NCBI GenBank assembly: GCA_023150415.1
Contig: JAKLKY010000001.1
Span: 1 to 40,541 of the forward strand
Direction: 5' to 3'
DNA length: 40,541 bases
Origin: Alphaproteobacteria bacterium
Lineage (GTDB): Bacteria; Pseudomonadota; Alphaproteobacteria; Micavibrionales; Micavibrionaceae
Positions within the stretch are counted from its first letter, which is position 1. Every line of letters begins with the position of its first letter. The notes under the pieces are model-generated. The model ran no database searches. It was not told where the DNA came from and was given only the letters and a program-made list of their open reading frames with translations. Below, piece by piece: positions 6,846 to 23,462 of this stretch. The translations under genes and the position numbers were made by a program.

Positions 6846-8261
6846 ATGCTTTTTGATATGTCTGCAAACAAGCAATTTCAATGTTTTGTTCCGTTTGTGT
6901 GCACGCTAGCGCTTTTTGTCTTTATGATATTTGCTGTGGTTGCGCCTGCCCATGCGGCTCGCGGCAAGGAAAATAATAAATACGCAGCCATGGTCATTGA
7001 TTCTGAAACAGGGCAGGTGCTGTTCGAACGTAATGGGGATAAGGCAGTATATCCCGCGTCCTTAACCAAGGTTATGACGCTGCTATTATTGTTCGAAGCG
7101 CTGGAAGCCGGCCAGGTCCGCCTGAATGATCGCATTCCAGTATCGGCCCATGCTGCGGCGGCGCCGCCTAGTAAATTGGGTCTTCGTGTCGGGAGCACCA
7201 TCAAGGTCAAGGATGCGATTTATGCCATGGTCACAAAATCGGCCAATGATGTTGCTGTCGCGGTAGGGGAGTTTCTCGGCGGGTCAGAGGCGCGCTTTGC
7301 TCAAATCATGACATCGCGGGCCAGACAACTGGGTATGCGAGGGACAACATTCCGCAATGCTTCTGGCCTTCATAACCCTGCGCAGACCACGACAGCACGC
7401 GACATGATCGTTCTCGCGCGGACCGTGATTCGGCAATACCCGGATTATTACCGTTATTTCTCAACACAAAATTTTACTTATAATGGACATTCCTATAATA
7501 ATCATAATCGGCTGATGGGGAAATATCCCGGCATGGATGGGATGAAAACCGGCTATGTGAACGCCTCGGGCTTTAATTTGGTGGCCTCGGCAGTGCGGGA
7601 TGATAAGCGTTTAATTGCTGTTGTATTTGGCGGGCGCACAGCCAATTCGCGAAATGCGGAAATGCGCAAGATACTTGATGCCTCTTTTGCGCGTATTAAC
7701 CAGACATCCTCCGGTATTCGTGTTGCATCGGCATCAGAGACCTTCGCCCCGAAACCTGTCGTGCGGGATGTGGTCGATGCCGAGGATATGCCGAATATGG
7801 CCATGGTTGAGCATTCTGCAGGGCAAAAGCAGGGCGCTTTAAACCCGATGATCGGGCAGGGTGACTTTGATCCCGGTATGGTCCGGCGGATGAATGCGGG
7901 CCTGCTGGCGATTGCTGCGCATCAGGGTATGCAAAAGCAAAATCCTGTTGTGCGGCCAGCACAGCGTCAAACACAACGGAGCCTAGTGACACCCGTTGTC
8001 AGCAGTGCATCGGCAAGGGGTTCTAAGGATTGGTCTATTCAAATTGGAGCTTTTAATAGCCGTGTTGCGAGTGAGGAATCAACTGCGCGTGCGCTTGGCA
8101 AATTGCCCGCCGTTCTGCGCCACGGACAGCCAGCCGTAGCCCCAATGAAAACCAATAAGGGGTGGCTCTACCGGGCACGCCTGAGCGGCTATACCCAGGC
8201 ACAGGCCAATGTGGCTTGTCGCTATCTGCGCGACTGTATTCCTGTTGCGCCGATTCGCTGA
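6846..8261 (+). CDS. dacA: D-alanyl-D-alanine carboxypeptidase (PBP5/6 family) with SPOR domain
   Basis: 471 residues from ATG 6846 (ATG 6858 is an alternative; neither has a strong ribosome binding site). There is a hydrophobic signal segment at residues 12-37 ending AHA. The peptidase S11 domain has all three motifs: SLTK (72-75), SAN (132-134) and KTG (234-236). It trims the terminal D-Ala of peptidoglycan pentapeptides in the periplasm. After a Pro/Gln-rich linker, residues about 392-468 form a SPOR domain (WSIQIGAFNSR, then GWLYRARLSGYTQAQANVACRYL), which binds denuded glycan at the division site. This architecture is common in alphaproteobacteria. The stop overlaps the start of the next gene in ATGA. 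Confidence 0.93.
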   Translation: MLFDMSANKQFQCFVPFVCTLALFVFMIFAVVAPAHAARGKENNKYAAMVIDSETGQVLFERNGDKAVYPASLTKVMTLLLLFEALEAGQVRLNDRIPVSAHAAAAPPSKLGLRVGSTIKVKDAIYAMVTKSANDVAVAVGEFLGGSEARFAQIMTSRARQLGMRGTTFRNASGLHNPAQTTTARDMIVLARTVIRQYPDYYRYFSTQNFTYNGHSYNNHNRLMGKYPGMDGMKTGYVNASGFNLVASAVRDDKRLIAVVFGGRTANSRNAEMRKILDASFARINQTSSGIRVASASETFAPKPVVRDVVDAEDMPNMAMVEHSAGQKQGALNPMIGQGDFDPGMVRRMNAGLLAIAAHQGMQKQNPVVRPAQRQTQRSLVTPVVSSASARGSKDWSIQIGAFNSRVASEESTARALGKLPAVLRHGQPAVAPMKTNKGWLYRARLSGYTQAQANVACRYLRDCIPVAPIR

Positions 8262-8980
8262 TGACGCAGGGCGAGCAATCGGGGAATGTCTTTTTTATTA
8301 TTCTGCTTGCTGTGGCTTTGCTTGGGCTTTTGTCAGCCGCTTTAATGCAAGGCTCTGATAGCGGAACATCTAACATTGATGATGAAACTCTTTCCATTCG
8401 CGCCTCTGAATTCCAGCGTCATGCCGGCGAATTTGAGCGGGCCGTTGCGGCTTTGCTGCAAAACGGGGTGAGTGAGAGCGATCTGCGGTTCAGTCATGCC
8501 GATGCGCCTTCGGAATACGCAGATGCGGGCGCTGCTGATTCGCAACAGGTATTCCATTCCGCGGGCGGAGCTGCAACCTACCGTGACCCGCCCGATAGCA
8601 TCAACGATGGCAGTACATGGGAATTTTATGGTGGTACGCATATTCCGGGCGTTGGCACCAGCAAGGCGGATCTCGTTGCGGTTCTACCCAATGTCACCGA
8701 CCAATTCTGTGCTAAGATCAATGCAATGAACGGGCAGGATGCACCTCAGGATACCGGCGGTTCTATCGGTTCAGGGGCAAGCCCCGGCAACTGTGTCTAT
8801 ACGGGCACGGATGGGCGCTTTGGTGCGACACACCAGTTTTTTGATCCGCCGAACACTATGTCTGAGGCCAGTTTCACACAGGATGCGAATTTAAGCGCAC
8901 CTCAGGCTGCCCTCGAAGCCTGCGTCGTTTGCGCAGCTGACAACAACAACTACGCCTACCATGTTTTATTGGCTCGTTAA
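8261..8980 (+). CDS. pilin-like single-pass membrane protein
   Basis: 239 residues starting at ATG 8261, which overlaps the dacA stop (ATGA). The N-terminus is a short polar stretch with Gly-Asn followed by about 20 hydrophobic residues (VFFIILLAVALLGLLSAAL), like type IV pilin or type II pseudopilin N-termini but without a Glu at position 5. The rest is exported, with Cys pairs (FCAKINAM, GNCVY, CVVCA) and Gly/Asp-rich loops. I recall abundant proteins of this plan in Micavibrio-like alphaproteobacteria, but no function is known to me. Coupling to a cell-wall carboxypeptidase suggests a cell envelope role (inference). Confidence 0.7.
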   Translation: MTQGEQSGNVFFIILLAVALLGLLSAALMQGSDSGTSNIDDETLSIRASEFQRHAGEFERAVAALLQNGVSESDLRFSHADAPSEYADAGAADSQQVFHSAGGAATYRDPPDSINDGSTWEFYGGTHIPGVGTSKADLVAVLPNVTDQFCAKINAMNGQDAPQDTGGSIGSGASPGNCVYTGTDGRFGATHQFFDPPNTMSEASFTQDANLSAPQAALEACVVCAADNNNYAYHVLLAR

Positions 8981-9037
8981 AAATGCTGAAATAAGAGCGA
9001 ACTCACGCGCGCGACCCGCGTTTGTGTCAGGAACAGC

Positions 9038-9148
9038 CTAAGCCGCAGTGGCCTTTGCGATATCCGTATCGAGGGAGATAACGTCCAGCATTACCCCAGG
9101 CTGGCTGGGTGCTTCGCGTGTCCATTGTTCTTTGAACTTATCACTCAT
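9038..9148 (-). CDS. small 36-residue protein
   Basis: ATG (complement of 9146-9148) opens a 36-codon frame ending in TAG at 9038-9040. The peptide starts MSDKFKEQWTREAPSQPG and ends in KATAA. An unusually strong ribosome binding site (AGGAGGAG) lies 6 nt upstream, and a promoter-like TTGGAA-N18-TATATT sits at 9172-9201 on the same strand. It has no membrane segment or cysteine. It is not recognised. It could be a cytosolic small protein or a peptide precursor, but no modification enzyme is encoded nearby. Confidence 0.6.
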   Translation of the reverse strand: MSDKFKEQWTREAPSQPGVMLDVISLDTDIAKATAA

Positions 9149-9171
9149 AAAGAGCTCCTCCTCTGCAATAT

Positions 9172-9201
9172 AATATAGCACTCTATTGGCAAAGTTTCCA
9201 A
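9172..9201 (-). promoter_or_regulatory. sigma-70-type promoter for the 36-residue gene
   Basis: On the minus strand: TTGGAA (9201-9196), an 18-nt spacer, TATATT (9177-9172). Transcription would start about 15-20 nt before the ATG, just upstream of the AGGAGGAG ribosome binding site. Confidence 0.5.
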
Positions 9202-9273
9202 TTATATTTGGTCTTTAATCGACAGCATAAAAGATCTTGATTTAAAACAACTATTTTTGTACATAAAGCCTGT

Positions 9274-10551
9274 ATGACCCCCGCCGCCCGTATCCAAGCC
9301 TGTATCGATATTATTGAAAAAATTAATAAAAGCACTATCCCCATGGATTCAACGATTGGGGATTATATGCGCGTACGGCGCTATGTCGGCGCCAAGGACA
9401 GAGCCGAAATAGCAGAACGTTGCTATGCCATGATGCGTGCCTGGGGGCGTGTTGGCTGGTGGCTGACACGCACCGGCACGGCGGATACCCCACGTAACCG
9501 GGTCATAACATTTCTAATTCTAGGCGAGGGGTGCGATGAAAAGCGCATTGGCCAACTTTTTAACGGCGCCAAGCACAGTCCACAAGAAATTACCGAAGCT
9601 GAGCAAGGTTTTATCGCACGCCTTGACGGCTCGCTTGAGCATTCCGAAATGCCAGAAGCCATACGCGTTGAATGTCCGTCAACGCATGAAGAAGTGCTGC
9701 GGCAGGTTTTTGGTGCTGATTTTGTGCCCGAAATGGTGGCAATGCTCACGCCCGCGACGCTCGATTTGCGGGTGAATGTGTTTCTTGCCACTCGGGAAAA
9801 GGTTCAGGTTTTTCTCAAGGCCGATGGTGTAGAGACAAAAGAAACCCCTGTTTCGCCCTGGGGATTGCGTTGCGCAGGTAAAGCTTATTTGTCGAAAACA
9901 AAGGCCTTTCATAAAGGCTGGATTGAGATTCAGGATGAAGGATCACAGCTTATTGCTTGGCTTTGCGACGCACAGCCGGGTATGCAGGTGCTTGATTATT
10001 GCGCTGGTGCGGGCGGCAAGACTTTGGCTTTAGCAGCATCCATGATGCGAAAGGGCAGGATTGTGGCGATGGACACCGAAACGCGCCGTCTTGAAAAGGG
10101 CCGCGAACGTTTTCGCAAAGCGCAGGTCAGCGATATCATTGAGGTCCGCCCTCTGCTCGAGGAGCGTCATAAAAAATGGCTGCGCCGACAGAAAGAGACC
10201 TTCGACCGTGTGCTGGTGGATGTGCCCTGCAGCGGTAGCGGCACCTGGCGCCGTAATCCGGATATGCGCTGGCGGCAGTATGGGCCATCGTTGGAGGAGC
10301 TAGTGGCGGTTCAAGCAGATATCTTGGACCGCGTGGCGCATACGCTGAAGCCGGGCGGTAAGCTTATTTATGCCACATGTTCTCTCTTTCCAGCAGAAAA
10401 CGAGAGCCAGGTAGAGGCTTTCTTGCAACGCCATCCGAATTATCGTCCGGAGCCCTTGCCCGAAGCGATACGCAACGGATCTTATATGCGCTTGACACCC
10501 TTGCGGCATGGAACCGATGGTTTTTTTGCTGCGGTTATGGTGAAAGTTTGA
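9274..10551 (+). CDS. RsmB/NOP-family RNA m5C methyltransferase
   Basis: 425 residues. The N-terminal 150 residues are helical and NusB-like, as in RsmB. The C-terminal Rossmann methyltransferase domain has the SAM-binding DYCAGAGGKT (241-250), the PCSG motif with Cys319, and the catalytic TC at 368-369 (YATCSLFPAENE), the two-cysteine signature of RNA m5C methyltransferases. Expected to methylate cytosine in 16S rRNA or tRNA using S-adenosylmethionine. The exact target cannot be read from the sequence, and alphaproteobacteria often have more than one paralogue. The ATG at 9274 follows an AT-rich 125-bp intergenic stretch shared with the divergent small gene. Confidence 0.9.
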   Translation: MTPAARIQACIDIIEKINKSTIPMDSTIGDYMRVRRYVGAKDRAEIAERCYAMMRAWGRVGWWLTRTGTADTPRNRVITFLILGEGCDEKRIGQLFNGAKHSPQEITEAEQGFIARLDGSLEHSEMPEAIRVECPSTHEEVLRQVFGADFVPEMVAMLTPATLDLRVNVFLATREKVQVFLKADGVETKETPVSPWGLRCAGKAYLSKTKAFHKGWIEIQDEGSQLIAWLCDAQPGMQVLDYCAGAGGKTLALAASMMRKGRIVAMDTETRRLEKGRERFRKAQVSDIIEVRPLLEERHKKWLRRQKETFDRVLVDVPCSGSGTWRRNPDMRWRQYGPSLEELVAVQADILDRVAHTLKPGGKLIYATCSLFPAENESQVEAFLQRHPNYRPEPLPEAIRNGSYMRLTPLRHGTDGFFAAVMVKV

Positions 10552-21699: not shown

Positions 21700-22461
21700 A
21701 TGGACCCCATCTATTTTCCCGGCTCGCTTGGGCATAAGCTGGCGGCGCGGCTGGATGCGCCGCAAGGCGATGTGAAGGCCTATGCCCTGTTTGCCCATTG
21801 CTTCAGCGCCAGCAAGGATATGTTAGCGGCATCGCGCATCGCCCGCGCGTTGACCGAACGTGGCATTGCCGTACTGCGTTTTGATTTCACCGGGCTGGGC
21901 GCCAGCGAGGGGGATTTCTCCAACACCAACTTCACGACGAATGTGCAAGATCTTGTCCGCGCGGCGGATTATCTGCGCGCGCATTGGCAGGCGCCGAAAA
22001 TCCTGATTGGTCATTCCCTGGGCGGGATTGCCGTGCTGGCGGCGGCTCATGAAATTCCTGAATCGCGCGCAGTGGCCACGATCGGTGCGCCGGCGGATGC
22101 GGCCCATGTCACGCATCATTTCGCGGGCAAGGAAGATGAAATCCGCGAGAAGGGCGAGGCCGAAGTTTCGCTGGGCGGGCGGCCCTTTAAAATACGGCGT
22201 CAATTTCTGGATGATGTTACTACGCAGAATATGGAGGACCATATCCGCAATCTGAAACGTGCCTTGCTTATTCTCCACGGACCACGGGATCAAACCGTTG
22301 GAATTGAAAACGCTGAGATTATCTTTCGCCTTGCAAAGCACCCGCGCAGTTTTATCTCGCTGGATGATGCGGATCATCTGCTGACCCGCAAGGACGACGC
22401 GCAATATGTGGCGGAAGTCATCGCCGCCTGGGCCAGTCGCTATGTGGAGGATGCATTATGA
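21700..22461 (+). CDS. alpha/beta hydrolase of the type often fused to OsmC
   Basis: 253 residues. The nucleophile motif GHSLGG has Ser106, and DDADHLLT near the end supplies the His of the triad. The sequence pattern ([50 protein letters not shown]) is that of the N-terminal half of bifunctional alpha/beta hydrolase-OsmC proteins, but here the protein ends after ASRYVEDAL and no OsmC domain follows. Substrate unknown. It overlaps ilvC by 4 nt (ATGA), so the two are co-translated. Confidence 0.85.
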
Positions 22462-23462
22462 GCCCATTTTCAATGCCGCTTTACACCGACAAGGATTGCG
22501 ATCTGTCTTTGATTCAAAACGGTGTCGTAGCGTTGATCGGCTATGGGTCGCAGGGGCGTTCGCACGCGTTGAACTTGAAAGACAGCGGCGTGAATGTGGT
22601 GGTCGGCCTGCGCGCGGATTCATCGACGCGCGCGCAGGCGCAAAGCGACGGATTTAAAGTAATGGAACCCGCTATAGCGGCGGCACAGGCGGATGTGGTG
22701 ATGATGCTGACGCCCGATGAAAACCAGCCCGAAATTTACCGCGATCATTTGGCCGCGAACATAAAGCAAGGTGCGGTGCTGGGCTTCGCGCACGGGCTTG
22801 CGATCCATTATGGCTTGCTAAAGCCGCGTGCGGATCTGGATGTATTCATGGTCGCGCCGAAGGCAATCGGTCCTGCGGTGCGCGCCGAATATGTGGCCGG
22901 GCGCGGGCCGGCGGGGTTGATTGCCATCCATCAAAATGCCTCGGGGCGGGCGCGGGATCTGGCGCTGTCCTACGCGGCGGCACTTGGGTGCGGGCGCACG
23001 GGGATTTTTGAAACGAGTTTCAAGATCGAGTGTGAGGGCGATTTGTTCGGCGAGCAGGCCGTTCTGTGCGGCCCCTTGCCGCGCTTGATCACAGCGGCTT
23101 ATGAAACGCTGGTCGAGGCCGGATACCCGCCCGAGATTGCCTATTTCGAATGCGTGCATGAGGTGAAGCTGGTGGTGGATCTGATTTATGCGCGCGGGAT
23201 TGCCGGGATGCGTGACATGATTTCTAACACGGCGGAATTCGGCGCCTATCGCGCGGAGGAGCGGATCATCCCGCCTTCCGTGAAAGCTGCGATGAAAACC
23301 ATTCTGGATGAAATACAAAGCGGCGCGTTTGTGAAGGATTTTCTGGGTGGCAATAAAGAAGGGCTGGCACGTTTGCCTGATTTGCGCGTCCGCGCCGCGG
23401 CGCATCCGATGGAGGATGTGGGTGCAGCGATTAGAAAATTGGTTCTGAAAAGTGCTTCATAG
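22458..23462 (+). CDS. ilvC: ketol-acid reductoisomerase
   Basis: 334 residues, class I length. The N-terminal NADPH-binding motif GYGSQG is at 28-33. The knotted catalytic domain has [12 protein letters not shown] with the metal-binding Asp and Glu, [16 protein letters not shown] with two catalytic Glu, and SNTAEFG with the substrate-binding Ser. It makes the dihydroxy acid in valine, leucine and isoleucine synthesis. The sequence departs from the common consensus in several places (for example KIECEGD instead of [14 protein letters not shown] instead of HGFNIHFG), but all the key residues remain. ilvB and ilvN are not adjacent. Confidence 0.95.

Follow-up and report, generated by a model that had tools for sequence, protein, structure and literature searches.

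Locus features

The window (the whole stretch of 40,541 nucleotides that was analysed) contains a short open reading frame of 36 residues at positions 9038-9148, which runs on the minus strand from an ATG start to a TAG stop. The frame had been reported in a preliminary description of this DNA, from which the strand was missing. Its product reads MSDKFKEQWTREAPSQPGVMLDVISLDTDIAKATAA and includes the tryptic peptide EAPSQPGVMLDVISLDTDIAK. A single copy of the gene is present in the window's own genome. The features of the locus are as follows.

9038..9148, minus strand: small protein gene, 36 amino acids, stop codon included (homologues and coding test)
9149..9273, no strand: AT-rich region of 125 bp separating the small gene from rsmB, the two being divergent (sequence)
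9155..9162, minus strand: Shine-Dalgarno site AGGAGGAG, 6 nt before the ATG (sequence, Markov test)
9172..9201, minus strand: TTGGAA-N18-TATATT resembling a promoter, the second hexamer preceded by TG (match at the level of chance)
9274..10551, plus strand: rsmB, 16S rRNA (cytosine-C5) methyltransferase; adjacent, divergently oriented gene that anchors the synteny

On the other side of the small gene, an open reading frame at 8261-8980 (plus strand) follows a D-Ala-D-Ala carboxypeptidase gene; its probable start codon, the ATG at 8261, overlaps with the carboxypeptidase stop. The start of this frame is prepilin-like (a short head, then a hydrophobic stretch), and the whole frame 8162-8980 yielded no match in Pfam or NCBIfam.

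Ribosome binding site and upstream region

The window contains 12 AGGAGG sites, six per strand, and the AGGAGGAG site alone among them is followed, at a distance of 3-12 nt, by a start codon with an open frame of 30 amino acids or more. Chance expectations were determined from 200 Markov sequences of the same composition, which gave a mean of 2.2 cases for AGGAGG with any start codon, 0.42 for AGGAGG standing 5-9 nt ahead of an ATG, and 0.05 for open reading frames preceded by AGGAGGAG. The 8-base site is therefore unusual, whereas a 6-base site would not be, and the strong ribosome binding site on which the preliminary description had relied is borne out. With its start, stop and ribosome binding site, the short frame has the make-up of a small-ORF protein gene. 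The strength of the site is uneven among the genomes that carry the gene (listed below), being strong in the window genome and in G033 and, by eye, weak in G036 and G088.

The promoter invoked in the same description fared less well: the hexamers TTGGAA-N18-TATATT are present, with 9 of 12 matches to the consensus, but 117 of 200 shuffles of the AT-rich 125 bp matched as well, so the promoter argument carries no weight. Upstream of the five homologues no promoter beyond the shuffle range was found (best scores reached by 39 to 200 of 200 shuffles), nor was a common promoter element found in the upstream regions of the carriers.

Homologues and their occurrence

A search of 58 relatives with the single sequence gave convincing matches in G036, G001 and G033 (E-values of 4.7e-5, 8.8e-5 and 0.004, respectively); weaker matches at E 0.09-0.94, in six genomes, sit within frames of 174-891 amino acids. 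A profile built from four sequences brought in G088 and G117. Regarding the alphaproteobacterial family to which the window genome belongs, the profile identified six carriers among 104 genomes at E 3e-11 or better (the window genome, G001, G033, G036, G088 and G117), and no small gene in the other 98. In total, ten family genomes matched at E up to 0.1; the four at E 0.026-0.095 were not counted, one of them (G018) being a stretch within another gene with one TGA in frame and the other three covering 9 to 14 profile positions. The five homologues sit in genera other than that of the window genome, and their identity to the window copy is 36-43%.

Searches beyond the family added no members. 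The profile search of the order (142 genomes) returned the identical six carriers, that of the phylum (398 genomes) the window's own genome alone, and that of the class (385 genomes) likewise, besides an artefact in G169 (E 0.0014), which has an in-frame stop and continues no small gene. A degenerate DNA pattern, which would overlook members whose motif residues have changed, was found in nine stretches among 84,980 species genomes, corresponding to the five known relatives (recorded as metagenome-assembled genomes of Alphaproteobacteria) and four unrelated chance frames. Phage records yielded two matches with E-values of merely 5 and 8, plasmids and viral contigs none. As far as searched, the small-protein family is restricted to one family of uncultured Alphaproteobacteria.

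Absence is frequent even among close relatives, with no match in the congeners of G088 (six other genomes), G117 (three) and G001 (one). The small gene is dispensable, given its absence from 98 of the 104 genomes of the family, congeners of three carriers among them.

Gene neighbourhood

The small gene adjoins the 3' end of guaB in four of the five relatives, with stop-to-stop distances of 7 nt (G001), 76 nt (G033), 3 nt (G036) and 3 nt (G117), and has rsmB as its immediate divergent neighbour in the window and in three of the five (G001, G036, G088). All five relatives show at least one of these two arrangements. Small gene and rsmB are separated by a 97-amino-acid frame in G033 and by a gene that we take to be AhpD-like in G117. 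In the window genome guaB sits on a contig other than that of the window, and in G088 the neighbour on the guaB side of the small gene is not guaB.

A total of 98 genomes contain rsmB. Upstream regions were examined in 60 non-carriers, the remaining 38 genomes being the six carriers and 32 others. Since guaB occurs within 2.5 kb upstream of rsmB in 37 of these 60, this arrangement of guaB and rsmB is probably ancestral, with the small gene as its occupant; the present contents of the gap vary by genome among the genomes listed. In at least six relatives (L055, L058, L059, L060, L068, L109) the gap holds a small secreted-looking protein with repeats of EHTLADGTK and of motifs resembling ADGTKSPAPDGEH; it seems to be a separate lineage-specific family. 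One rsmB match (G073, contig C13, positions 22101-23282) has two TGA and three TAA codons in frame and represents a decayed gene, frameshifts or assembly errors.

The scattered occurrence at a constant place could also result, instead of from vertical descent, from exchange of the small gene among species through recombination where guaB and rsmB meet, the flanking genes providing the homology arms. An RsmB tree covering 70 of these 98 genomes (28 were left out) requires 6 changes for the six carriers, a number as low as this being obtained in 500 of 500 label shuffles, so that they cluster no more than randomly labelled genomes would; sister species lack the gene, and the regions upstream of rsmB in the 60 non-carriers hold no relic detectable by the profile, their motif scores equalling those of shuffled sequence. 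The tree was, however, built quickly and its backbone is weak, and recent transfer would not give a window copy just 36-43% identical to the others. Transfer is accordingly regarded as unlikely. Old origin with repeated loss is the simplest reading of the distribution, given the constant place and that same low identity.

Protein product

The six members share the motif W-x-R-E-x(3)-Q-P-G-x-x-L, and residues M1, W9, R11, E12, Q16, P17, G18 and L21 are invariant. Beyond residue 24 or so conservation ceases, each of the six having its own final 12-14 residues. In G033 the start was set at the codon following AGGAGG, which gives 51 residues; a longer frame of 86 residues is open. The structure model contains a helix at residues 3-15 and a short helix of low confidence at residues 30-35 (mean pLDDT 74, pTM 0.31). 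The peptide is charged, and a membrane segment is absent by eye.

Searches of Pfam, PHROGs and PADLOC with all six members, and of NCBIfam with five of the six, yielded chance matches alone (E 0.11 and 0.14), and a sequence search of the PDB with the small protein gave no match. A literature search on guaB, rsmB and a small protein together found no papers. A duplicate or mimic of the C-terminus of IMP dehydrogenase (the guaB product), suggested by the shared letters TREA-N, was rejected as chance, because the alignment score was reached by 10 to 56% of shuffled peptides (four genomes).

A conserved front part followed by a tail that is different in every member is also what a RiPP precursor with a conserved leader and a variable C-terminal core would look like. 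No RiPP modification enzyme was recognised, however, among the neighbours read at the six loci, and a PqqD-type recognition domain was found in none of ten genomes including the six carriers, with a control search positive in 3 of 14 named genomes. Such a domain is not required by all RiPPs. Taken as a whole, a precursor peptide of this kind is very improbable.

Evidence for protein coding

The coding test was performed on the ungapped 22-codon core of the six members (15 pairs). Pairwise differences at codon positions 1, 2 and 3 amounted to 35%, 17% and 62%, respectively, and 97 of 184 comparisons of identical residues within the core involved different codons. When alignment columns were shuffled, the protein similarity in frame 1 corresponded to a z of 6.85 (0 of 3000 shuffles as high), and 85 of 132 single-base codon differences were synonymous. 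On the antisense strand, frame -2 is likewise open throughout the six cores and gave a z of 3.1 (0 of 3000 shuffles as high), with 85 of 153 single-base codon differences synonymous; all other frames remained at a z of 1.4 or less.

Frames 1 and -2 share their third positions, so the period alone cannot pick the frame. Frame 1 was chosen because of its higher score, its aligned starts (ATG in all members except G117, which has GTG) and, in the stronger members, the ribosome binding sites; given the common third positions, the signal in frame -2 is taken, by argument, as a mirror of that in frame 1. The core block was picked by protein similarity, and the test therefore leans towards coding. 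The shared gene neighbourhood is independent of that choice.

The comparison with related genomes that the preliminary description had proposed as a check was run, and it returned five homologues that occupy the same junction and show substitutions of the protein type, that is, conservation at the protein level in other species, as in small-ORF proteins. On these sequence grounds the frame at 9038-9148 is a real gene with predicted translation, as had been supposed. That the gene is real and conserved and that its product acts as a protein is given a probability of about 0.75.

A regulatory RNA in which the frame is incidental is the least credible of the alternatives: in three carriers 3-7 nt separate the stop of guaB from the 3' end of the frame, so that an RNA read from the frame could run antisense to the guaB 3' end, but Rfam gave no gathering-score match in the window and none at E up to 1 within 8950-9300, the differences are for the most part synonymous and concentrated in third codon positions, and guaB is neither on the same contig in the window genome nor the next gene in G088.

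Proposed origin and mode of action

The best reading is a stand-alone protein-coding gene belonging to an old, often lost, lineage-restricted family of small proteins. Its ancestral position would have been in the guaB-rsmB gap, convergent with guaB (3' ends adjoining) and divergent from rsmB (5' ends adjoining), and it would have been lost from there many times under vertical descent. The product, of 36-51 residues, is presumably soluble. The predicted N-terminal helix would bear the conserved W-x-R-E and lead into a QPG turn. After the turn would come a brief hydrophobic segment, also conserved (x-x-L-[DE]-[VI]), and then the variable, free tail.

As the most likely mode of action, the N-terminal two thirds of the protein, which are conserved, would attach to a single partner protein in the cell and modulate that partner's activity. 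This suggestion is made by analogy with short bacterial regulators such as the small DUF1127 members, and partner binding by itself is put forward tentatively, at somewhat less than even odds. The lasting place between guaB and rsmB hints at a possible link to guanine nucleotide synthesis or 16S rRNA methylation; that the family represents a new small regulatory protein binding one conserved partner, possibly tied to either process, is a long shot.

Significance and comparison with known small proteins

The gene was picked from raw sequence by its ribosome binding site, and adds one well-supported family to the many small-protein families that are easily missed. The family raises no large question on its own; its patchy yet place-conserved occurrence constitutes a small natural experiment on the loss of dispensable genes.

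Small DUF1127 proteins, which according to PMC12501420 bind the sensor kinase PhoR, are often shorter than 50 residues, occur in Alphaproteobacteria and provide a worked example of small proteins acting via protein-protein contact. Unlike these, none of the six members matches Pfam DUF1127, the sole match being sub-threshold and to another family (E 0.11). In Sinorhizobium meliloti, ribosome profiling revealed small-ORF proteins that are short and often unannotated (PMC10117765). These are backed by translation data, whereas the family in the window is known here from its sequences. Like them, it is short, of a kind often left unannotated, and alphaproteobacterial, and it is a new, unnamed family of an ordinary kind, the bacterial small proteins.
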